From Micavibrio aeruginosavorus ARL-13 (GTDB taxonomy: Bacteria > Pseudomonadota > Alphaproteobacteria > Micavibrionales > Micavibrionaceae): a stretch of DNA of 64,000 nt. Location of the stretch: positions 1,178,001 to 1,242,000 of the forward strand of contig NC_016026.1 of NCBI RefSeq assembly GCF_000226315.1, read 5' to 3'. Below, in pieces: positions 32,694 to 42,546 of this stretch; the stretch's first letter is position 1; each line of letters begins with the position of its first letter. The translations under genes and the position numbers were made by a program. The notes under the pieces are model-generated. The model was not told the DNA's origin. It ran no database searches and saw only the letters and a program-made list of their open reading frames with translations.

Positions 32694-34421
32694 TTACTCT
32701 TTCGCTTCTGTGGCCATCAAGTCCGCGGCGCGCTTGACGCCCTCGGCAAAATTATGGGTCAGGATCAGGTCCGGATAATGTTGGAACAGCTTCATGCTGA
32801 CCATTATTTTCATTGGCTCTGGTTGCACCCCGGTCAAAATCACGCGGATATTGGCGCGGTGGCATCGGCGGATAAATTCCTCTAGAGCGGTTTCACCGCT
32901 GGAATCAATCATCGGTACTTGCCCCATGCGCAGGATGAAGATTTTCGGTTTCACCACCATCTGGTCTAAAACGTCCAGAAGACGGGATGAAACACCAAAG
33001 AATAGTGGCCCGCGCAATTGATAGGCCTCAACACCCTCTGGCAAGTGGGACCGCATGTCGTAATGCTGATCTTCGTGCCGAACGATGTCGGCCACATCGG
33101 ATTCGACCAACGTAATGTGTGTTTGCATTTCAAAGGCATGGGTCATGCGTACCATGAATAATATGGCCGCCATGATAACGCCGACCTCAATGGCCACCGT
33201 TAAATCCACCGCGACGGTCAGGGCGAAGGTGATGAGCAAAACAGCCTTGTCCCCCCACGGGGATTTGAGCAGGTGGATGAATTTTTCATGCTCGCTCATA
33301 TTCCACGCCACGATCACCAGGACAGAAGCCAGTACGGCCAGCGGGATATAGGATGCAAGCGGTGCAAGAAACAAAATAAATCCAAGCACGAAAACAGCAT
33401 GCAACATGCCGGATACCGGTGATTTTGCCCCGGATCGAATGTTGGTGGCCGTGCGGGCGATGGCTCCGGTTGCGGGCATGCCGCCGAACAGGGCGCTGGC
33501 ACAATTGGCCACACCTTGCCCCACCAGTTCACAGTTTGATTTATGGCGCCGCCCGGTCATCCCATCGGCCACCACAGCCGACAGCAGGGATTCAACCCCC
33601 GCCAAAAATGCGATGGTCAGGGCCGATGGGATCAATTCGGCTACACGCGTTGCCGTAATGCCCTCGGGCCATGACGGTGCGGGGATGGTGTTGGGAATGC
33701 CGCCAAAGACGGACCCAATGGTGGGCACGTCCATCTTTGTGACATAAACCAGGACAGATGCAAAAACGACCGCTACCAAAAACCCCGGAATTTTGGGCGC
33801 AAAGCGGCGTAGGCCGATAATGATACCCAGGCCCAAGGCGGCGATTAAAACACTGCCCTGCATGACCGTATCGCGCGCGTGCCAGAAAGCACCAACCTTC
33901 TCAAAAAACTCACCCGGAACGTGGTCCATTTGCAGGCCGAAAAGATCTTTGATCTGGCTGGTGAAGATAATCACCGCGATACCGGCGGTAAAACCTGTAA
34001 TAACTGGCTGGGGGATATATTTGATCCATGTGCCCAACCGTGCCAACCCGGCAACAACCAATATGGCCCCGGCCATCAGCGTGGCGATGACCAACCCTTC
34101 ATACCCAAATTTTTCAATGACGTTATAAATGACAACAACGAACGCCCCGGTCGGACCACCAATTTGAAATCGGCTGCCACCCAAAGCGGAAATCAGGAAG
34201 CCAGCGACGATCAGCGTAATCAGCCCCTTGTCCGGTGTGGTACCCGACGCAATTCCCAACGCCATGGCGAGCGGCAGGGCCACAATTGCCACCGTTAAAC
34301 CCGCAATAACGTCATCACGAAAATCAGATGCCCGGTATCCCTGTTGCAGGACGACAAACAATTTCGGGATATAAAGATGCCACCATTTCGGGGCCAGAGA
34401 TGCTGCGGGTGCTGAAGACAT
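32694..34421 (-). CDS. SulP family anion transporter with STAS domain
   Basis: About 575 residues from the ATG at 34421, which has AAGGAG upstream; the ATG at 34439 overlaps that site. There are ten or more membrane helices with DVIAGLTVAIVALPLAMALGIASG at the start and GGPTGAFVVVIYNVI, the SulP signature. A cytoplasmic STAS domain (about 440-570) carries MIDSSGETALEEF. Family members exchange sulfate, bicarbonate or other anions, and the substrate here is not clear. The upstream interval of about 60 bp shows nothing definite. Confidence 0.93.
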   Translation of the reverse strand: MSSAPAASLAPKWWHLYIPKLFVVLQQGYRASDFRDDVIAGLTVAIVALPLAMALGIASGTTPDKGLITLIVAGFLISALGGSRFQIGGPTGAFVVVIYNVIEKFGYEGLVIATLMAGAILVVAGLARLGTWIKYIPQPVITGFTAGIAVIIFTSQIKDLFGLQMDHVPGEFFEKVGAFWHARDTVMQGSVLIAALGLGIIIGLRRFAPKIPGFLVAVVFASVLVYVTKMDVPTIGSVFGGIPNTIPAPSWPEGITATRVAELIPSALTIAFLAGVESLLSAVVADGMTGRRHKSNCELVGQGVANCASALFGGMPATGAIARTATNIRSGAKSPVSGMLHAVFVLGFILFLAPLASYIPLAVLASVLVIVAWNMSEHEKFIHLLKSPWGDKAVLLITFALTVAVDLTVAIEVGVIMAAILFMVRMTHAFEMQTHITLVESDVADIVRHEDQHYDMRSHLPEGVEAYQLRGPLFFGVSSRLLDVLDQMVVKPKIFILRMGQVPMIDSSGETALEEFIRRCHRANIRVILTGVQPEPMKIMVSMKLFQHYPDLILTHNFAEGVKRAADLMATEAKE

Positions 34422-34481
34422 GGTAAGGGACTCCTTCAATGCGCCAGCATAGGCCTGCCAAACCCGTTTTTAAAGGGGATA

Positions 34482-35555
34482 TTACGCCCGTGCGTATTGT
34501 ACAGGCAGACTAACCGCATCAGCATGGCCCAGCGTTATGGCCGCATTGACAGGCCAATAGGGGTTGCGCAGCAATTCACGGCCCAGAAGGACCAGATCGG
34601 CTTTTCCCTCGCGAATAATCGCATCGGCCTGTTCCGGCGTTGTGATCAAACCGACGGCGGCGGACATGATACCCCCCTGATTTCGCACGGCATCGGCCAG
34701 CGGTACCTGATACCCCGGTCCAACCGGATAATGTTGTGCATCACCAGAACGTAAACCACCGCTGGAGCAATCAACAAGATCAACACCAGCGGATTTTAAT
34801 TTGCGGGCAAGGGCGACGGAATCCTCGACGGTCCAACCGCCGTCAACCCAATCGGTTGCCGAAATGCGGACGGTCAGGGGCAAATGGTCGGGCCATACGG
34901 TTTGAACGGCGGCCACAACCTCCATCAACGCGCGGCAACGATTGCCAAACGATCCGCCATATTGATCATCGCGTGTATTGGTGAGGGGGGAAAGGAAGGA
35001 ATGCAGCAAATACCCATGCGCCGCATGAATTTCCAGCCATTCGTATCCGGCCGTCACCGCACGCGCGGCGGAATCGCGGAAGGCGTGCACAATTGCGGTG
35101 ATTTCCGCGTGGTTCAGGGCATGGGGAACTTTATTCTGATGGCCACCAAAAGCTTCGTTGGTGGGGCCAACAACATCCCAGCCGCCGTCGTTATTTCCAA
35201 GATGATGACCACCTTCCCATGGCACGGCGGAGCTGGCCTTGCGCCCGGCATGGCCAATTTGAATACCGGGAATGGCGCCATGATGTTTTATCATCGCATT
35301 GATGCGCGCCAGTGGTTCAATTTGGCTGTCTTTCCACAACCCGGCGCAGGCAGGGGTAATGCGGCCTTCCGCTGTGACGCCTGTGGCCTCGGCAATAACC
35401 AATCCTACTCCACCAATCGCGCGCGTGGTCAGGTGCGCCAGATGCCAGTCATTGGCATGACCATCCACCGATGAATACTGGCACATGGGTGACATGCCAA
35501 TGCGGTTGCGAAGGGTGATCGATTTAATCGTCAGCGGGTCAAACAGATGGGGCAT
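34482..35555 (-). CDS. NADH:flavin oxidoreductase, Old Yellow Enzyme (YqjM/NamA type)
   Basis: About 357 residues (MPHLFDPLTIKSITLRNRIGMSPMCQYS). The FMN-binding active site includes MCQYS (the Cys typical of the YqjM class), QIGHAGRKAS, and EIHAAHGYLLHSFLSPLTNTRDDQYGGS with the catalytic His pair. It reduces activated C=C bonds with NADPH. It is the last gene of the Zur operon and its start overlaps the end of zur by 17 bp. Whether it belongs to the same pathway or is just carried along cannot be told. Confidence 0.9.
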   Translation of the reverse strand: MPHLFDPLTIKSITLRNRIGMSPMCQYSSVDGHANDWHLAHLTTRAIGGVGLVIAEATGVTAEGRITPACAGLWKDSQIEPLARINAMIKHHGAIPGIQIGHAGRKASSAVPWEGGHHLGNNDGGWDVVGPTNEAFGGHQNKVPHALNHAEITAIVHAFRDSAARAVTAGYEWLEIHAAHGYLLHSFLSPLTNTRDDQYGGSFGNRCRALMEVVAAVQTVWPDHLPLTVRISATDWVDGGWTVEDSVALARKLKSAGVDLVDCSSGGLRSGDAQHYPVGPGYQVPLADAVRNQGGIMSAAVGLITTPEQADAIIREGKADLVLLGRELLRNPYWPVNAAITLGHADAVSLPVQYARA

Positions 35556-35985
35556 TATGATCATCACATTTCATGCACACGCCACGGATTTCCATGGAGG
35601 TGGCGAGGGGTTTAAAACCAACCCCCTTAAAATGTGAGTCTTTCAGGATCTTTTCAAGGGCTGGAATTTGCATTTCTTGCACATCACCGCATGATTGGCA
35701 TATGGCAAATTGCGCGCTGTGCTCATGTCCATGCCCGTCACAGCATAAAACATACGCGTTCAGGCTCTCAATTCGATGGATCAGATGAACGGATTCCAGA
35801 AATTCCAACGCCCGGTACACGGTTGGCGGTTTTGTTCCATCCGGCATCAAACGCAGAACGTCATAGGCCCCGACCGGTTTATCGGCCTTGGCAATGACGC
35901 CGAAAACATCGCGACGCGGGTCGGTTAAACGCGCGCCAAGTTCGGCACAGATATTTTCAAGTTTGTTCGATACGCTGCACGTCAT
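35539..35985 (-). CDS. zur: Fur-family metal regulator, Zur-like
   Basis: A 148-residue winged-helix repressor. PPTVYRALEFLESVHLIHRIES is the recognition helix region. AYVLCCDGHGHEHSAQFAICQSCGD matches the E. coli Zur signature (the SYVLC and FICDRCG region). CQSC and CMKC supply the structural zinc site, and CDGHGHEH the regulatory ligands. It should repress transcription when zinc is plentiful. It is embedded in the operon, 2 bp after the cysteine synthase fusion. It is the obvious candidate to bind the two palindromes at 41006-41036, which would make the circuit self-regulated. Zur rather than Fur/PerR is favoured but not proven. Confidence 0.83.
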   Translation of the reverse strand: MTCSVSNKLENICAELGARLTDPRRDVFGVIAKADKPVGAYDVLRLMPDGTKPPTVYRALEFLESVHLIHRIESLNAYVLCCDGHGHEHSAQFAICQSCGDVQEMQIPALEKILKDSHFKGVGFKPLATSMEIRGVCMKCDDHNAPSV

Positions 35986-35987
35986 AA

Positions 35988-37298
35988 TTATGCGGCCCGC
36001 TTTTGCTGTTCATTGCGCCAGGCCAGCATACCGCCGCCCAGGCCGAAGGCCTGATACCCGCGCGATTGCAGGTAAGCGGCATAACGCGCCGTTTTTTCAC
36101 CGACGGGGCAAGCCAGCAAGATCGGGCGGTCTTTTGCAAACGGATCCGCCGCATCAATCATCGGCTCCAGCAATTCCCATGGAATGTTGATCGAACCGGG
36201 AATGGACATCATTTTGAAGGCCAGGTTCCCGCGCACGTCAATAATCAACGGATTGTGTTCCGCAATCCACGTATTGGCTTGGGCGGCGGGAACAGCGAAT
36301 TGGTCGTTGGATACGGTGTATTCAAAGGCCTGCAGGCTGCCCGGTTTTTGTTTTTGGTTAAACAGATGCGGGCGGCGTTGGCGGACATAATCCGTATACC
36401 ATTCACCACGATCACAAACGATAAACACGGCGGATTTACGTTCCGTCAAACTGTCGTCAATGGTGCGCAAATATTTCAGCGCACCCAGATAACTTGCGCC
36501 ACTGGTCGGGCCGCACATAATGGCGCATTTTTTGACCAGATCCATCATGGCATCAACGGCTTCGCCGGAATCAACGTAAACGAAATCGGCGTAATGTTCT
36601 TTGGTGAACAATCCGGATTCCCACATTTGATCCATCGAACGAATACCCGGAATGAAATCATTCTTGCTGGCACAAATACCGATGGTTTTCAGGCCAGTGC
36701 TGCCCTCATCACGAATACGACGCGCGGCACCCAATGTGGAACCCGATGTTCCCAATCCACCAAAGAAATAATCAACACGGCCCAGATCATCGGCAATTTC
36801 CTTACCCGTTGTCTGGTAATGAATATCCGGGTTTTTCGGGTTGGTGAATTGTGACGGGAAATAGGCTTTCTCCGGGTCGTCCTTCACCGCCTTTTCGATC
36901 AGGAATTGCGGGTCGTTCGGGTCATTCGGGTCGAAACATTCGCTGCCGCCCAAAACTTCCTCAATCTCCGCGCCCAGCATGCGGATGATATCCTTCACGC
37001 CGTCTACTTTGGCCAGATAGGTGATCAGTTTCGTTTCTACGCCATAGGTGCTGGCGATCAGTTGCAAGGCCTTGGCCGTGTTGCCGGACGAATTTTCGTA
37101 GATCGTCTGACCCTTGGCCTGAATATCCGCGATATCATCACGGATCATGCCCCATGCCACGCGGTCTTTCACCGAACCGAACGGGTTCATCATTTCCATT
37201 TTGGCATACAGATCGATATTCTTCAGGCCGTGCACCTCCGCCGGGATTTTCAGCAGGGGGGTGTTGCCGATCATGTCGGTAATGCGGTCATAAATCAT
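35988..37298 (-). CDS. Cysteine synthase-like PLP enzyme fused to a rhodanese domain
   Basis: A 436-residue fusion. Residues 1-320 are a fold type II PLP enzyme of the O-acetylserine sulfhydrylase/CBS group: NPFGSVKDRVAWGMI carries the PLP lysine, ENSSGNTAKAL is the phosphate/substrate loop, and GGLGTSGSTLGAARRI is the PLP phosphate loop. Residues 335-436 are a rhodanese domain with the catalytic Cys in LLACPVGEKTARYA. The combination suggests a sulfur transfer or beta-replacement reaction. SbnA, the diaminopropionate-forming relative of staphyloferrin B synthesis, belongs to the same superfamily, but I cannot assign that activity. It is cotranscribed, 2 bp after the Y4yA-like gene. Confidence 0.85.
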   Translation of the reverse strand: MIYDRITDMIGNTPLLKIPAEVHGLKNIDLYAKMEMMNPFGSVKDRVAWGMIRDDIADIQAKGQTIYENSSGNTAKALQLIASTYGVETKLITYLAKVDGVKDIIRMLGAEIEEVLGGSECFDPNDPNDPQFLIEKAVKDDPEKAYFPSQFTNPKNPDIHYQTTGKEIADDLGRVDYFFGGLGTSGSTLGAARRIRDEGSTGLKTIGICASKNDFIPGIRSMDQMWESGLFTKEHYADFVYVDSGEAVDAMMDLVKKCAIMCGPTSGASYLGALKYLRTIDDSLTERKSAVFIVCDRGEWYTDYVRQRRPHLFNQKQKPGSLQAFEYTVSNDQFAVPAAQANTWIAEHNPLIIDVRGNLAFKMMSIPGSINIPWELLEPMIDAADPFAKDRPILLACPVGEKTARYAAYLQSRGYQAFGLGGGMLAWRNEQQKRAA

Positions 37299-37300
37299 GA

Positions 37301-38824
37301 TTAATACGCTCCAATTTTCAGGGCGAGGGGATTGTAAAGATCGTCACGGAACCAGCGGAAACCGGATTCCGTTTCAACAACAGCAATTTTTTCGGCGATG
37401 CGTTGTTGCAACACATGGGTTTCGGCGAAATCCATCTGGTACGCGGCGGTGTTTATAAACGCCACAACATCGCCCGTTTCCGGGATAAAGTCGGGGAATG
37501 TTTTGTGATACTGGATCATGTCATGGGTCAGGCAGAGGTTGCCCACATACATAACCCCATCATCCGCCGGTTTGCGGTTTTGGTTACGGTATAAAACAAC
37601 CGGGTCCGTCATTAATTTCAACTGGGTTGCGTTCAAATTGGTGCGGTTCATATCCAGAACCACCAATTGCTCACCCATCATGGATTGCTTATTCAAATTC
37701 ACACGGGACAAGGTGATGCCACATTGATCCAACAACGCCCGGCCCGGTTCAACATACAAATCCATCAAACTGTCGGACAGAATGCGGGACAAGGATTGCC
37801 CGTCAAACAATGGCAATGGCGCATCAATGACGGAGGCCAGATCGGCCGGGCCGTCATCCTTGTGGTAATGTTCCATAAAGTTTGGCGCGCCTTTTAAAAC
37901 GCCACCTTCATTCCGGAACCCAAGGCCTGAATCGTTCCATGTCAGGCTATCGCGTTGGCCAAGGACGGAGGCCTTTAATTCCTCAACATACGCGTTCCAT
38001 TCATCCTGAGATGCGGCATAGCGAATGCGATACCCACCACCAATATCAATCCCGCGCGGGGACAGGCCACGGTTCATGCATTCAAAGGTGAGTTGCAGAA
38101 TGGTTTCAATGGCCGGCGGGCGGCGAATGTAATCGCCCGCGTTGAAGTGGAAGCTGAACCCATGGAAATCCAGAACATCTTTATGCGCGACCAGATAATC
38201 GATGATCGCCGGGGCGTGTTCGACATTGTTGGCGAATGCGCTGTCCTGCGCCGTGAATTTTACGCGGTCGGGTTTAAACCCATCCAGACGGACAAGAATG
38301 CGGGCCTTTTTCCCCGACGGCAGAAGGGATTGCGTGGCAATAATCTGCGCCATTTCCGTCATATTATCGACGTTAATCAACACGTCTTGTTGCAAGCACA
38401 AGGACAAATAATCGGCGTTTTTCGGCCCCGTCGCCTCAATCCGTGATGGATGGAATCCGGACGCCAGTGCGTTTTTCAATTCACCTTCGGATGAAACGTC
38501 CAAGCCAACATTGGTCATGGCCGCGCGTTTTTTCAGTGCGGCGGATTTGTTAGGTTTGGATGTGTAAAAAATCCGTCCCTGCAATTGCCGATCATCATAT
38601 ATTTTCTGGAACGAGGCAATCGTATCCGCAATGTGATCCGGGAACATAATGTTCAACGGCGATCCAATCCCATCGACCAGAGAGAAAACGAGGGCTTGAT
38701 CGGCCAAAAACCGTTCGATCATCGGGTGAATGGCGGCGCGAACGCGGGGGCGCGAACGGTCAATCGTGGTCCCCAACATTTGATCGGCCAGACAGAGATC
38801 GTCTTTGCGTACGGCGTTTGTCAT
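37301..38824 (-). CDS. Y4yA-like PLP-dependent decarboxylase family enzyme
   Basis: A 507-residue fold type III PLP enzyme of the ornithine/lysine/diaminopimelate decarboxylase group. It shows GRIFYTSKPNKSAALKKRA (PLP lysine), VSSEGEL, HGFSFHFNAG, GIDIGGGYRI (phosphate loop), YVEPGRALLDQCG, and a C-terminal GDVVAFINTAAYQMDF in place of the usual GAY loop. This subgroup has no established substrate to my knowledge. The pairing with a cysteine synthase-like enzyme recalls SbnA/SbnH in staphyloferrin B synthesis. The gene abuts the CooC-like gene with no gap. Confidence 0.8.
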   Translation of the reverse strand: MTNAVRKDDLCLADQMLGTTIDRSRPRVRAAIHPMIERFLADQALVFSLVDGIGSPLNIMFPDHIADTIASFQKIYDDRQLQGRIFYTSKPNKSAALKKRAAMTNVGLDVSSEGELKNALASGFHPSRIEATGPKNADYLSLCLQQDVLINVDNMTEMAQIIATQSLLPSGKKARILVRLDGFKPDRVKFTAQDSAFANNVEHAPAIIDYLVAHKDVLDFHGFSFHFNAGDYIRRPPAIETILQLTFECMNRGLSPRGIDIGGGYRIRYAASQDEWNAYVEELKASVLGQRDSLTWNDSGLGFRNEGGVLKGAPNFMEHYHKDDGPADLASVIDAPLPLFDGQSLSRILSDSLMDLYVEPGRALLDQCGITLSRVNLNKQSMMGEQLVVLDMNRTNLNATQLKLMTDPVVLYRNQNRKPADDGVMYVGNLCLTHDMIQYHKTFPDFIPETGDVVAFINTAAYQMDFAETHVLQQRIAEKIAVVETESGFRWFRDDLYNPLALKIGAY

Positions 38825-39793
38825 TTATGCCACCTTGGTAATTTTGAAATCCGGGTCGATTTGGCTCATCACATCGCCGTATCCTTGCTGAACCCATTTC
38901 TTCTCGTTCAGTTTTGTATGCAGGGCATACAGCATGGCCATGCGGTCTTGCGCGGATAAAGCAGGTTTTGATGCGGCCAGCATGATCTTTTCCATCGCGG
39001 TTGCCATGTCGCCGGTTACGAAATCGGTTGAGATCGCATCGCCACGCTGGCGCAGTTTTTTCAGGGCCGATGTATGGGGAAGTGCGGCAATCGGGGTCAT
39101 GCCGGTGGCCTTCACAATAAATTCGATATCGGATTCATCTTCGATCTTGTTGGCGACCAGATGGATCAGGCCGTCAATGCCGGATTCGCGGGCCAGTTCC
39201 ATATAGAGGCGGCACACTTCCGCCGATTCCGGTGTGGGTTCGGCGATCAGGACAATGGCATCGAACTGCAAATGCATGGAATAGGCAAAAGCATCAGTGC
39301 CCGCCACCATGTCACAGACAACCCAGTCATTGTCATTCTCCAGCGCAATGTGGGACAGCAGATTTTCGGCCACGAACAAATGGCTGTGGTAACAGGTTTG
39401 GCCAATGCCGTCCTTGTCATACGTCCCCACGCTCATCAAATTCAGGCTGGGTGCGTCGTTGATACGCACGGAATAGGGGGCCAGCGCCGCATCATCAACG
39501 GAGCGGACCAGATTTGATCCCTCACCAGGCGGTGTGGTGGGCAGGAATTTGGAAATATCGGCCACGCGGGCATTTGTGCCCTTGATATAATTGCGGATAA
39601 CATCGGCCACATCGGGGTTGGCCATCAATTTATCCATGGCAACCTCAACCCCCAGAAGGCCGGAAAGGTTCATATTCACATCCGCATCAATGGCCAGAAC
39701 CGGACGGTTTTGAACCGCGTTCATATACCGGGTGAACAACGCGGATGTCGTGCTTTTCCCCGAACCACCCTTACCAGCGAATGCGATTTTCAT
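38825..39793 (-). CDS. CooC/MinD-like P-loop ATPase
   Basis: A 322-residue deviant-Walker ATPase: MKIAFAGKGGSGKSTTSALF gives the Walker A motif with the signature Lys, followed by VLAIDADVNMNLSGLLG, WVVCDMVAGTDAFA (Walker B) and VANKIEDESD. CooC uses such a domain to insert nickel into CO dehydrogenase, and related proteins handle other metal centres. The cysteine residues are sparse (one in CYH, one in VCD), so a clear metal site is not visible. It sits between a cysteine desulfurase and PLP enzymes, so a role in cofactor maturation is a reasonable guess. Confidence 0.82.
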   Translation of the reverse strand: MKIAFAGKGGSGKSTTSALFTRYMNAVQNRPVLAIDADVNMNLSGLLGVEVAMDKLMANPDVADVIRNYIKGTNARVADISKFLPTTPPGEGSNLVRSVDDAALAPYSVRINDAPSLNLMSVGTYDKDGIGQTCYHSHLFVAENLLSHIALENDNDWVVCDMVAGTDAFAYSMHLQFDAIVLIAEPTPESAEVCRLYMELARESGIDGLIHLVANKIEDESDIEFIVKATGMTPIAALPHTSALKKLRQRGDAISTDFVTGDMATAMEKIMLAASKPALSAQDRMAMLYALHTKLNEKKWVQQGYGDVMSQIDPDFKITKVA

Positions 39794-39794
39794 G

Positions 39795-40967
39795 TTATGC
39801 GGCTCCTTGCATTTTTTGAATGGTTTGCATGGCGTTGATGATCATGTCGGCGGCGCGGACAATCTCCATCTCCGTCGTAAAACGCCCGAATGACAGGCGT
39901 ATGGATTCACGCGCCGGTTGATCTGCACCGGTCATGGCGCGGATAACATGCGAAATATGACCTGTGCGTGTGGCATTGCAGGCGGATGACGGGCTGAACG
40001 CCAGATCGGGCAGGGCGGCAAGAAGGTCTTCGTTCGTAATACCGGGGACACGGATGTTCAGGATATTCGCCGCACGCCATGCCGCATCGGAATGACCATT
40101 GATGACCAAATCCGGCAAAGTCCCCTTTAATTTTTTCAGGAACAAGGTGCGCAAAGCTTCCATCTTTGCCAAATCATCGGCCAGTTCGATGTGAACCAGT
40201 TCTGCCGCCTGTCCAAATCCGGCGCACAATTCTGTGGCTACGGTTCCGGCGCGCATGCCGCCTTCGTACATGCTACCGAACAGCAGTGGTTTAATGTGGG
40301 CACGGATATGGGGGGCGATGTACAAGGCCCCCATGCCCTTGGGGCCATAAATTTTATGGGATGATAATGTGACCAGATCCGGATGGCCGCATTGATCCAA
40401 CGTAAAATTCATCTTACCAACGGCTTGGGCAGCATCGGAATGGAAGATGATCCCCGCCGGCAAAACCGCACGAATTTCGGCCAGGGGTTGGATAGTTCCC
40501 ACTTCGTTGTTCAACCCTTGCACAGACACAAAACCGGTTTGCGGCGTGATTGCGGCGGCGACCATATCGCCCTCAACCATGCCACAGGGTTTGGGTTGAA
40601 CGTAGCTTACGGTGAAACCGCGCTTTTCAATTTCCGCCATCGGGCCCAAAACGGATTTATGCTCGACCGCTGTGGTCACGATATGGGTTTTGCCGATGGA
40701 GCGCAGGTAATCCAACACGCCAAATAATGCCATGTTGTTGGACTCGGTCGCGCCCGATGTGAACACAATGCTGTCCTTTGGGGCGGCGATACAATCGGCC
40801 ACCTGTTCACGGGCCAGATCAATATGGGCGGCGGCTTTCATACCGAATGAATGGACGCGTGCCCCGGCATTGCCGAAATCGTTGCGCATGCAATCATCCA
40901 TCACGGCATGAACGCGGGGGTCCAGCGGTGTGGATGCGCCGTAATCCATGTAAATGGGGTCGGTCAT
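39795..40967 (-). CDS. Cysteine desulfurase, NifS/IscS-like
   Basis: About 390 residues from the ATG at 40967 (MTDPIYMDYGASTPLDPRV); a longer frame starts at 41021 inside the Zur-like operator and is rejected. It is a fold type I PLP enzyme: TSGATESNNMALFG, TTAVEHKSVL, HSDAAQAVGKM, and LSSHKIYGPKGMGAL with the PLP lysine. The catalytic Cys lies in SPSSACNATRTGHISHVIRAM. It mobilises sulfur from cysteine as a persulfide, which the rhodanese domain of the downstream fusion could accept. It is the first gene of the operon and no iscU or sufE partner is present nearby. Confidence 0.92.
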   Translation of the reverse strand: MTDPIYMDYGASTPLDPRVHAVMDDCMRNDFGNAGARVHSFGMKAAAHIDLAREQVADCIAAPKDSIVFTSGATESNNMALFGVLDYLRSIGKTHIVTTAVEHKSVLGPMAEIEKRGFTVSYVQPKPCGMVEGDMVAAAITPQTGFVSVQGLNNEVGTIQPLAEIRAVLPAGIIFHSDAAQAVGKMNFTLDQCGHPDLVTLSSHKIYGPKGMGALYIAPHIRAHIKPLLFGSMYEGGMRAGTVATELCAGFGQAAELVHIELADDLAKMEALRTLFLKKLKGTLPDLVINGHSDAAWRAANILNIRVPGITNEDLLAALPDLAFSPSSACNATRTGHISHVIRAMTGADQPARESIRLSFGRFTTEMEIVRAADMIINAMQTIQKMQGAA

Positions 40968-41005
40968 TCTTTTGAAATCCGTTAAATGGGCCCAAGACCC
41001 GGAAC

Positions 41006-41036
41006 TGTTACAGAATAACACTGTTATAAAGTAACA
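41006..41036. promoter_or_regulatory. Two tandem Zur-like operators
   Basis: TGTTACAGAATAACA (41006-41020) and TGTTATAAAGTAACA (41022-41036) are both TGTTA-N5-TAACA palindromes, spaced 16 bp centre to centre. The pattern matches the core of known Zur boxes. They overlap the -10 element and the predicted start of the sigma-70 promoter at 41023-41050, the position expected for a repressor. The regulator is likely the Zur protein encoded in this operon. Confidence 0.82.
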
Positions 41037-41050
41037 ATACCGGGCGTCAA
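41023..41050 (-). promoter_or_regulatory. Sigma-70 promoter of the Zur operon
   Basis: On the minus strand TTGACG (41050-41045) is followed by a 16 bp spacer and TATAAC (41028-41023). Transcription would start near 41016, giving a leader of about 50 bases before the cysteine desulfurase ATG at 40967. Confidence 0.75.
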
Positions 41051-41070
41051 GGGCAGAATTGAAGAGAAAT

Positions 41071-42108
41071 CTAGGGGCGCAGTGTCGTGCACATCGTTGA
41101 TTTATCAGTCAATTTTTTCCATTCATCCGCAGGCAGGCCTGGATTTTGCATCGGGTGCTGTTGATGATGGTTGTCTTGGTGGTGGTGGTCATGCTCATTG
41201 CCGCCATGGTTATCATGCCCACCCGTCAACGATATGCCCGCAGCGATACCAAAGGCCAAAGCTGCAGAGCAGCCCAGTTTCCATGCAGAACTTTTTACGC
41301 CGCGCCATTTATCAATCCCATAGGTCACAGCGGTGGCAATCACCGGAGCGGTGAACATCATCAGGCCCGCCATGGTGCCAGCGGATACAGCCGTACCGGA
41401 TGCAGCGGCAATCGCCGGAATGGCGATGCAACCAACATGGGATACCGCGGCACCGCCAGCGCCACCACCCACGCATAGGGCGCAGCTTCGGAACGCATTG
41501 CGCAAACCGCCAGGGATTTTATCGTACACACCAACCAAAACCGGGTGTGCGGATTGATGGGCTTCGGCAAAAATTTGCATCGTCGTTGTTTCGAAACGAC
41601 GGGCCAGCGCCTTCATTGTTTCCGGATTGTTGTGCATGAATGTTTCAGCGGCGGTGCGAATGGCTTCAAATTCCGGCTTGTGGGCCTGAGCCTTTAAATG
41701 CAAAGGCACGGCGGCATAGCCGGGTGCGGTGTAACCAGTGAACAGCTCAACAGTGGCTTCATCCAGAAAGGCGGTATCCTTCACCGGATCTTTGGGTAAA
41801 TTCAGGCCCTTGATGCTGATGTCATGTTTATAGGATGCAATATCCATGGCCCGGCGCAAGGATTCCATATCCTGATCCGCGGTTTCGCGGTGCCAGTTCA
41901 TATTGCTCTTGGCGACGGCGATGCGGGCCTTGTCTGTGGCCAATTCATATTTGCTGTATCCATCACATCCGAACATGGACGGCATGGCTTGTTCAATACG
42001 GAATGTTGACACGGCCACCAGCGCGACGGCATAGCGGGCAGGGTTAAAAATGCCATTAACGGGGTTTGTGGCAATCTCACGGGCCACGGTTTTGTGGAAT
42101 TTGCACAT
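41071..42108 (-). CDS. Hypothetical membrane protein with histidine-rich tail
   Basis: A 345-residue protein I cannot assign to a family. The N-terminal 200 residues are soluble-looking. Residues about 215-300 hold hydrophobic Gly/Ala-rich segments (CALCVGGGAGGAAVSHVGCIAIPAI; TMAGLMMFTAPVIATAVTYG; ALAFGIAAGISLTGG), probably three membrane helices. They are followed by a histidine-rich stretch at about 301-325 (GGHDNHGGNEHDHHHQDNHH), which should bind Zn2+ or another transition metal. It is on the same strand as, and immediately upstream of, the Zur-controlled promoter. That fits a zinc-handling role but does not prove it. Confidence 0.7.
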   Translation of the reverse strand: MCKFHKTVAREIATNPVNGIFNPARYAVALVAVSTFRIEQAMPSMFGCDGYSKYELATDKARIAVAKSNMNWHRETADQDMESLRRAMDIASYKHDISIKGLNLPKDPVKDTAFLDEATVELFTGYTAPGYAAVPLHLKAQAHKPEFEAIRTAAETFMHNNPETMKALARRFETTTMQIFAEAHQSAHPVLVGVYDKIPGGLRNAFRSCALCVGGGAGGAAVSHVGCIAIPAIAAASGTAVSAGTMAGLMMFTAPVIATAVTYGIDKWRGVKSSAWKLGCSAALAFGIAAGISLTGGHDNHGGNEHDHHHQDNHHQQHPMQNPGLPADEWKKLTDKSTMCTTLRP

Positions 42109-42119
42109 AATATTTCACT

Positions 42120-42167
42120 CTTTCGTTTGTGATGTTGATTTGATGTTTTTTTTCAATCAAACGAAAG
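42120..42167 (-). other. Inverted repeat between the DUF2946-like and His-rich genes
   Basis: CTTTCGTTTG (42120-42129) and CAAACGAAAG (42158-42167) are perfect 10 bp inverse complements around a 28-base loop rich in T. It covers the stop of the upstream gene and the start region of the His-rich gene. The layout is not that of a classic terminator. It could be a protein site or a leader structure. Confidence 0.6.
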
Positions 42168-42546
42168 ACGGTGGGGCGCGTGACGACGCGCGGGCAACGG
42201 CATGGCGGTCACGAATATGATCGGACCAGACATCAACGAAGTTAGAATAAGGTGTCGTGATACCCGCCCATGTTACAGGGTGCGGTATATCGCCGGACAG
42301 AACGGGGGCAAATGGGCAATGTTCACCGGATTGTTGGTGGTCTGTACCATTTACGGGCTGTCCCTGCGCATCCACCGTGATGGTTTGCGTGCCGAATCCG
42401 GAGCAGATGACCATGGTGAATGTGCCATCATCGCGATCACCGGGCATGTATCCGACAGGGATCATCGCGCGCAAAAAAACGGCCAGAACCACCAGGGTGA
42501 CGGCCAGCATTTTGATCCAGTTTTTGGCAGGAGACGCAAATGTCAT
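42157..42546 (-). CDS. DUF2946-like membrane-anchored protein
   Basis: About 129 residues from the ATG at 42546. One N-terminal membrane segment (about 12-32, MLAVTLVVLAVFLRAMIPVGYMP) leads into a periplasmic part with TFTMVICSGFGTQTI and SGEHCPFAPVL. The FLRAMIPVGYMP and CPFA features resemble DUF2946 proteins, whose function is unknown and which often sit beside metal transport genes. It precedes the His-rich gene by about 48 bp on the same strand, and the two are probably cotranscribed. Confidence 0.65.
   Translation of the reverse strand: MTFASPAKNWIKMLAVTLVVLAVFLRAMIPVGYMPGDRDDGTFTMVICSGFGTQTITVDAQGQPVNGTDHQQSGEHCPFAPVLSGDIPHPVTWAGITTPYSNFVDVWSDHIRDRHAVARASSRAPPSFV

Follow-up and report, generated by a model that had tools for sequence, protein, structure and literature searches.

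A Zur-controlled operon of Micavibrio aeruginosavorus, shared with distant bacteria, that may make an aminopolycarboxylate zinc ligand

We analysed a 64,000-nucleotide stretch of the Micavibrio aeruginosavorus ARL-13 genome (contig NC_016026.1, positions 1,178,001 to 1,242,000), here called the window, in which positions are counted from its first letter. It carries an operon of six minus-strand genes encoding, in order, an IscS-like cysteine desulfurase (CysDes), a CooC-like P-loop ATPase, a fold-type III pyridoxal phosphate (PLP) decarboxylase, a CysK-like PLP synthase fused to a rhodanese domain, the zinc repressor Zur and an Old Yellow Enzyme (OYE) family flavoprotein (Table 1). We call the decarboxylase Y4yA, a label kept from the first reading of the sequence; the models used identify it as a fold-type III PLP decarboxylase. 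On the evidence of operator sequences here and in relatives, we are very confident that the operon is under Zur control. We also think it fairly probable that the operon makes an aminopolycarboxylate zinc ligand by C-N bond chemistry and supplies an ATPase that handles the metal. The original prediction had raised a metal-binding small molecule as a possible product, and that suggestion is supported and sharpened by a match to the fold of a fungal synthetase and by related loci in Micromonosporaceae.

The operon layout was confirmed as first described, with six genes on one strand at 0-2 bp spacing or in overlap: the gaps are 1, 0, 2 and 2 bp in operon order, and zur overlaps the OYE gene. Families were assigned with Pfam and NCBIfam in a scan of 10 window proteins and back the predicted products. 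The best NCBIfam model of the Zur protein is Zur itself (101.3 bits, under that model's cut-off of 167), and its two CxxC pairs, CQSC and CMKC, align with those of related Zur proteins. A sigma-70-like promoter, read from the sequence, is overlapped, as had been predicted, by two TGTTA-N5-TAACA palindromes whose starts are 16 bp apart. Both are perfect and lie over the -10 box and the expected transcription start. There is no other perfect copy in the window, and the whole 2,481,983-bp single-contig genome has three copies, two of them at this promoter. With up to one mismatch, the palindrome occurs at 23 places genome-wide against 59 for a reversed control pattern; with up to two, it occurs 17 times in the window against 16.5 in shuffles. 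Because these looser matches are no commoner than the controls, only perfect sites are informative genome-wide. The third perfect site, at 309211-309225, lies near an integrase-like gene, and no zinc gene was noticed beside it. The CysDes start is likely the ATG at 40967, since the GTG at 41021 of the longer open reading frame (ORF) would precede the start of the transcript.

Related loci carry the same operator. When 143 relatives were searched with the CooC-like protein, 13 matched, and 12 of these, the window genome included, have a core trio of CooC-like, Y4yA and CysK-rhodanese genes (for G076, the third trio gene was seen in its copy L088). The thirteenth match, G128 (E 6e-7), was excluded as distant and partial. 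Its 3.8-kb contig, L035, has a Zur-like gene (23%) near the distant CooC-like gene (25%), and no core PLP enzyme was seen on it. The 12 Micavibrio-lineage loci (265,848 bp) contain 13 perfect operators, compared with 0.00 expected in Markov-resampled copies that preserve dinucleotide frequencies only approximately, and 26 operators with no more than one mismatch, compared with 5.4 expected. All 13 perfect operators lie within about 60 bp of the called start of a cluster gene, some of them just inside it (in the window, L023, L026 and L030). A perfect operator is present in nine of the 12 loci, and a perfect or one-mismatch operator stands at a called cluster-gene start in 10. In L027, a one-mismatch operator falls within an over-long Y4yA ORF, 22 bp ahead of the likelier start, and at the L032 cluster there is no perfect or one-mismatch operator. 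The original prediction had made the operator in orthologous clusters the check on its zinc link, and these counts, together with the three perfect genome sites, strongly support Zur control.

Possible Zur boxes also occur outside the Micavibrio lineage. In Melainabacteria, a distinct conserved Fur/Zur-like box, AACGATAACCGTTTTCATT, was recognised by eye directly before CysDes in L038, L039, L040 and L044, and a near copy, also found by eye, is present in L043. L102 has a perfect match to an alphaproteobacterial Zur consensus. A Zur or Fur gene lies within 10 of the 22 distinct clusters that we assembled.

Those 22 clusters, which come from several phyla, define the core of the system. A scan of an 84,980-species collection with two strict peptide patterns gave at least 77 loci that encode a relative of the CooC-like protein. 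The full trio was detected by tblastn in 19 of the 77; two have CooC-like and Y4yA genes at a contig end, one (L096) has CooC-like and CysK-rhodanese genes without Y4yA, and 55 have the CooC-like gene alone. Ten of the 19 were already among the relatives found with the CooC-like search, and the addition of G845 brought the total to 22: 12 from the Micavibrio lineage, L038, L039 and L040 from Melainabacteria, L041 and L046 from metagenome-assembled genomes (MAGs), L060 and L187 from Micromonosporaceae, and one each from Doudnabacteria (L062), Deltaproteobacteria (L095) and Alphaproteobacteria (L102). Y4yA directly precedes CysK-rhodanese in all 22. The CooC-like gene adjoins Y4yA or sits one gene off, the gene between being a desulfurase, a second CooC-like gene or a methyltransferase-like gene on the opposite strand. 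An ORF called between CooC and Y4yA at L029:10082-10819 was set aside, as it has no family and may be on the wrong strand. Sixteen clusters include a desulfurase gene (12 IscS-like, four SufS-like), and three of the six without one are on contigs of 5.7-7.4 kb (L027/L088, L062 and L102), where the gene may be cut off. It had been noted at the outset that scattered occurrence would argue against a pathway; this is refuted for the core trio, which we hold with high confidence to be a conserved functional module. OYE was rejected as a core pathway enzyme, because among the mapped loci of relatives only that of the nearest relative, L023, shares it. Among the open-access papers listed in literature searches, we recognised none that describes the gene trio.

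The cluster is rare, and its sequences mark it as horizontally spread. Among the matches listed for 398 genomes of the phylum, the window genome alone has the full cluster. The CooC profile at E 0.001 matches 250 of the 398, and among the matches listed only the window's own protein and those of G233 and G143 span more than about 105 of 324 positions. G233 and G143 were dropped, with no Y4yA or CysK-rhodanese match within about 20 kb around their CooC-like genes. Within the Micromonospora family, 168 of 300 genomes match, and two of the 30 loci examined have Y4yA adjoining. In a tree of 23 CysK-rhodanese proteins (the 22 clusters and L096), the window and L023 group with L038, L039, L040, L041 and L046 (support 100/98), and L024, from the same genus, falls outside this group; deeper forks are weak and some branches are long. 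The window proteins are 72-73% (Y4yA) and 75-77% (CysK-rhodanese) identical to those of L038-L040, compared with 52% and 65% for L024. L041, from a record titled Actinobacteria with 46% GC, groups with Melainabacteria and may be a mislabelled MAG or a transferred cluster.

Among the structures examined, the fold closest to that of the CysK-rhodanese protein is aspergillomarasmine A (AMA) synthetase. For an AlphaFold model of the protein (mean pLDDT 80.9), alignments were made to the 1,000 top Foldseek chains, and the best 50 were examined. The top matches were the AMA synthetase chains 8h4q and 8h4h (Z 35.4 and 35.1 over 420 and 417 residues), and among the best 50 of 1,000 only these span both domains (residues 1-436 and 1-435). 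The matches that follow, namely the O-phosphoserine-dependent CysM of M. tuberculosis, CBS, OASS and SbnA (Z 32.7), cover essentially the CysK domain only. In three separate sequence queries the alignment to AMA synthetase likewise continues into the rhodanese region, whereas those of the listed cysteine synthases do not. According to the available portion of PMC12751119, AMA synthase condenses O-phosphoserine with L-Asp, toward a chelator. For Fda4 of Fusarium poae, which is PLP-dependent and carries a rhodanese-like domain, the paper reports in vitro coupling of O-phosphoserine to L-Ala, toward L-2,3-diaminopropionate (L-Dap); both CysK-rhodanese fusions with reported activity there form C-N bonds. 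AMA has a zinc Kd of 0.2 nM (an older value is 200 nM), prefers zinc to Mg, Ca and Mn, and is made by a single synthase that suffices for it (PMC8319579, in the part available).

Genes that accompany the trio in relatives point to transport of the product. An ABC ATPase, an FtsX/MacB-type permease and a DUF3299 protein occur together in six of the 12 Micavibrio-lineage clusters (by Pfam in L033, L031 and L034, by similarity in the remainder) and are absent from the window operon. In L030, a perfect operator lies 42 bp ahead of this ATPase/permease/DUF3299 operon. The Micromonospora locus runs CooC-like, Y4yA, CysK-rhodanese, SufS-like, ATP-grasp, major facilitator superfamily (MFS), FecB-type lipoprotein, FecCD and ABC ATPase, followed on the same strand by a methyltransferase-like gene and a relative of the zinc GTPase ZigA (52%), with a His-rich protein encoded on the opposite strand. 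The Pfam assignments cover the ATP-grasp, MFS and FecCD proteins, the first of which weakly matches an amino-acid-ligase C-terminal domain; the FecB- and FecE-type genes were assigned by reading. The G845 locus keeps the order from CooC-like through ABC ATPase, with an extra ORF after ATP-grasp and a Zur-like gene (27%) directly upstream. Because genes for synthesis, export, import and zinc handling stand together, these loci resemble metallophore loci. ZigA itself is encoded in L034 (603.5 bits, against a curated cut-off of 600), and a relative of it in L156. L046 has genes for a MerC protein and for an MFS/BT1 transporter, and L096 for an asparagine-synthase-type enzyme and another PLP enzyme. 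Opine zincophore genes of the CntL/CntM type (nicotianamine-synthase-like, opine dehydrogenase) were absent among the 10 window proteins scanned. The methyltransferase-like protein MT was considered as a CntL-like enzyme and rejected; its weak Methyltransf_23 scores are under the cut-off, and it has no similarity to the Micromonospora methyltransferase.

Several observations weigh against a secreted product of the AMA kind. Identity to 8h4q and 8h4h is 21-22%, with an overall rmsd of about 21 because the two domains are oriented differently. AMA synthetase ranks about 51st of 119 by single sequence and 7th by profile, and CysM does at least as well on the CysK domain, so that sequence alone is not decisive. 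The rhodanese Cys, like the PLP Lys, is conserved in 23 of 23 bacterial CysK-rhodanese proteins, which would be odd without sulfur movement and leaves room for a sulfur step. The window operon has no exporter gene and no ligase. A search of the window genome for TonB receptors gave a single match, whose 22.3 bits fall short of the cut-off of 27. FecCD-family matches in this genome are confined to its one ZnuA-family ABC operon, which is Sit-like by reading; a ZIP transporter was not found at E 0.001. Given the missing receptor and exporter and the confinement of FecCD to the ZnuA-family operon, a secreted and recaptured molecule is not established for Micavibrio. The ligand there may act inside the cell or at the prey surface, or may pass by unrecognised carriers.

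Some of these observations speak for a sulfur relay of the kind raised in the original prediction, in which persulfide from the desulfurase would pass through the rhodanese domain to aminoacrylate in the CysK domain and the decarboxylase would yield a thiol amine. The product would then be no secreted chelator; a thiol or persulfide of low mass would buffer or mobilise intracellular zinc. Such a relay would account for the invariant rhodanese Cys and PLP Lys and for the presence of an IscS- or SufS-like desulfurase in 16 of the 22 clusters. CysDes has a catalytic Cys330 in an SAC motif that is retained in all nine IscS-like desulfurases aligned. The want of a TonB receptor and the rank of M. 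tuberculosis CysM as next best fold agree with the relay as well. It is at odds with the six clusters in which no desulfurase was seen (three of them on the short contigs) and with the C-N chemistry reported for both characterised fusions (PMC12751119, in the portion available). The importer, MFS and ATP-grasp genes of Micromonosporaceae, together with the MacB-type exporter of six of the 12 Micavibrio-lineage clusters, suggest that the molecule is exported. We consider the sulfur relay unlikely.

Desulfurase, CysK and decarboxylase are all housekeeping families, and the operon could be read as a Zur-regulated back-up for the usual metabolism of sulfur amino acids, its enzymes standing in for the housekeeping ones. 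None of the three proteins comes near its namesakes' cut-offs, however. The best NCBIfam model of CysDes, PRK14012, gives 356 bits, under the IscS cut-off of 548, and Y4yA reaches 122.1 bits against the curated LysA model (cut-off 297.9). CysK-rhodanese reaches 159.8 bits with cysM (cut-off 394.2), 121.2 with cysK (cut-off 350.95) and 148.5 with the curated SbnA model (cut-off 349.95). The Y4yA residues K90, E359-P360-G361 and C431 are invariant in 11 of 11 aligned proteins. Two stronger PALP-family enzymes are encoded elsewhere in the window genome, so CysK-rhodanese need not be the cell's cysteine synthase. The IscS, CysK and LysA families use PLP and not zinc, and back-up copies would therefore spare no zinc. 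With the rarity and horizontal spread of the cluster also against it, a back-up role is very improbable.

The CooC-like ATPase has its own link to zinc. It shares P-loop ATPase ancestry and the position of the metal motif with CooC, the nickel-insertion ATPase of CO dehydrogenase, and differs from it in having C[YF]H in place of CxC and in being linked to Zur. In a search with the family profile, CooC1 chains (3kje and three other entries) matched at E 8e-22, with CYH opposite CYC. C[YF]H is found in 71 of the 72 loci with a match at E <=1e-20, and the CxC of CooC was seen only in the exception, L037 (CVC). Among lone actinobacterial CooC-like genes, 29 of 48 have a Zur-like box within 250 bp upstream, where random windows of the same loci would give 1.05; boxes were scored with up to three mismatches to a Zur consensus, and 16 of the 29 are Nocardiopsis loci and not independent. 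The 48 comprise 47 loci from the pattern scan and L036; L045 (contig end) and seven Acidimicrobiales loci (L108-L114) were left out. The 19 loci with no box include 14/19 Actinoplanes-group loci and all four Streptomyces loci. From these sequences, we infer that the C[YF]H ATPases form a subfamily that arose from the CooC kind and is linked to zinc. Lone C[YF]H ATPases that stand behind Zur-like boxes in many actinobacteria, without PLP enzymes (L036 and among L047-L107), could be a family of zinc chaperones in their own right. The clusters L030, L031, L032, L033 and L034 also encode a second CooC-like paralogue, which is longer (342-408 aa) and 21-27% identical, and which has its own operator in three of them (perfect in L030, one mismatch in L033 and L034).

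Homology to CooC1, with the metal motif position kept and its residue altered, and the boxes at the 29 lone loci would also fit the assembly of a metal centre. The ATPase would then metallate a zinc-sparing enzyme, for which the PLP and sulfur enzymes would build a site ligand or cofactor, and no metallophore would be involved. We noticed no client metalloenzyme common to the clusters, and the ligase and siderophore-type transporters would be left unexplained. This makes metal-centre assembly improbable.

Our favoured explanation, synthesis of an aminopolycarboxylate zinc ligand, would work as follows. When zinc is plentiful, Zur-Zn bound to both palindromes would block the promoter; when it is scarce, the operon, including zur itself, would be transcribed. 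The operator sequences strongly support both steps. CysK-rhodanese would then, most likely, activate O-phosphoserine or O-acetylserine to aminoacrylate, to which the nitrogen of an amino acid would be added as in AMA synthetase, Fda4 and SbnA, giving an aminopolycarboxylate conjugate. The Y4yA/SbnH-like decarboxylase would strip a carboxylate to leave an ethylenediamine-type ligand of the EDDS/marasmin kind. The gene content of Micromonosporaceae suggests that there the ATP-grasp ligase extends the ligand, the MFS protein exports it and the Fec-type system re-imports it. The CooC-like ATPase would use its C[YF]H site to handle zinc, or a substitute metal, within the cell, either loading it into the ligand or a client or removing it from them. 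Desulfurase and the rhodanese Cys may supply sulfur to a product variant or keep the enzyme active. More broadly, and with somewhat less than even confidence, we propose a class of bacterial zincophore system that would be new and would have spread horizontally. In it, a Zur-controlled marasmin-type CysK-rhodanese, an SbnH-like decarboxylase and a CooC-derived C[YF]H ATPase would make and unload an aminopolycarboxylate zinc ligand without nonribosomal peptide synthetase (NRPS), NRPS-independent siderophore (NIS) or opine enzymes. The class would have been exchanged between predatory Micavibrio and Melainabacteria, and the ATPase would also serve as a stand-alone Zur-regulated zinc chaperone in actinobacteria.

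Two genes precede the operon on the same strand, as predicted. They encode a His-rich protein and a DUF2946 protein, and the palindromes lie after both, so these genes are not under the Zur promoter in this genome. A separate promoter is expected for the His-rich protein gene. That protein has no Pfam or NCBIfam family, and relatives of it occur in related clusters. It was rejected as a known transporter when its predicted model gave no fold match with Z >=5, which is no proof of a new fold. The DUF2946 protein ends in RAPP, a motif of the copper-sensing upstream ORF CruR (PMC9426467, in the part available). At the CxxC position of CruR, the window protein reads CPFA, and the second Cys is missing in eight of eight readable cluster copies, whose C-terminal motif is APP or GPP. 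The DUF2946 protein may be a nascent-chain metal switch, encoded before the His-rich protein, in which the metal has changed. On the other side of the operon, a SulP/STAS transporter gene that keeps its place in L023 may be reached by read-through from the Zur operon.

Table 1. Features of the Zur-controlled operon and its surroundings, in window positions
Feature	Position	Strand	Remarks
SulP/STAS anion transporter	32694-34439	-	starts 42 bp past OYE
OYE family flavoprotein	34482-35567	-	last operon gene; PF00724, 238.6 bits
Zur, Fur-family zinc repressor	35539-35985	-	FUR Pfam 44.2 bits, over cut-off 23.1
CysK-like PLP synthase with C-terminal rhodanese domain	35988-37298	-	PALP and Rhodanese Pfam matches
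Y4yA/SbnH-like fold-type III PLP decarboxylase	37301-38824	-	Orn_Arg_deC_N Pfam match
CooC-like P-loop ATPase	38825-39793	-	CbiA Pfam match; C-Y-H at position of CooC C-x-C metal motif
CysDes, IscS-like cysteine desulfurase (class V PLP enzyme)	39795-40967	-	first operon gene; PF00266; start ATG 40967
Zur operator 1, TGTTACAGAATAACA	41006-41020		perfect TGTTA-N5-TAACA; over expected transcription start
Zur operator 2, TGTTATAAAGTAACA	41022-41036		perfect TGTTA-N5-TAACA; over -10 box and part of spacer
Sigma-70-like promoter	41023-41050	-	TTGACG 41050-41045, 16-bp spacer, TATAAC 41028-41023
His-rich protein	41071-42108	-	conserved MC-x-x-H and CxxC; predicted helical C-terminal part; His-rich tail
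DUF2946 protein	42157-42546 (from ATG)	-	PF11162, 37.8 bits; C-terminal RAPP motif

Parts of this system resemble known ones. AMA synthetase and Fda4 likewise combine a CysK-type PLP domain with a rhodanese domain; they are fungal, and the bacterial CysK-rhodanese is linked to AMA synthetase by modelled fold and domain fusion. No Zur, CooC-like ATPase or fold-type III decarboxylase is known to accompany either. Staphyloferrin B synthesis has the same pairing of a CysK-like synthase (SbnA) and a fold-type III PLP decarboxylase (SbnH), but SbnA and SbnH lack a rhodanese domain, are iron-controlled and partner with SbnB and NIS synthetases. PA4066 of P. aeruginosa we take to be a DUF3299 protein. 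The Zur-regulated operons PA4063-PA4066 and ZrgABCDE have the ATPase, FtsX/MacB permease and DUF3299 trio of the six Micavibrio-lineage clusters. The available text of PMC11481552 describes PA4063-PA4066 as a Zur-regulated MacB-type exporter operon proposed to export pyochelin, and names no biosynthetic genes in it. No CooC-like gene is known among those for ethylenediamine disuccinate (EDDS) of Amycolatopsis japonicum. EDDS is an aminopolycarboxylate chelator made unlike NRPS or NIS products (PMC4993170), and a zinc- and Zur-controlled zincophore (PMC6103462, PMC9252823), as far as the available parts of these sources go.

Few bacterial zinc chelators were found outside the opine, NRPS and NIS routes, EDDS being the example in the literature searched. 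If our favoured explanation is true, this compact trio of genes is the signature of one more pathway to a zinc ligand, related to that of aspergillomarasmine A, which has drawn interest for its ability to disarm metallo-beta-lactamases. A CooC-derived ATPase would also gain a role linked to zinc, and there would be a reason why an alphaproteobacterial predator and Melainabacteria exchanged genes.

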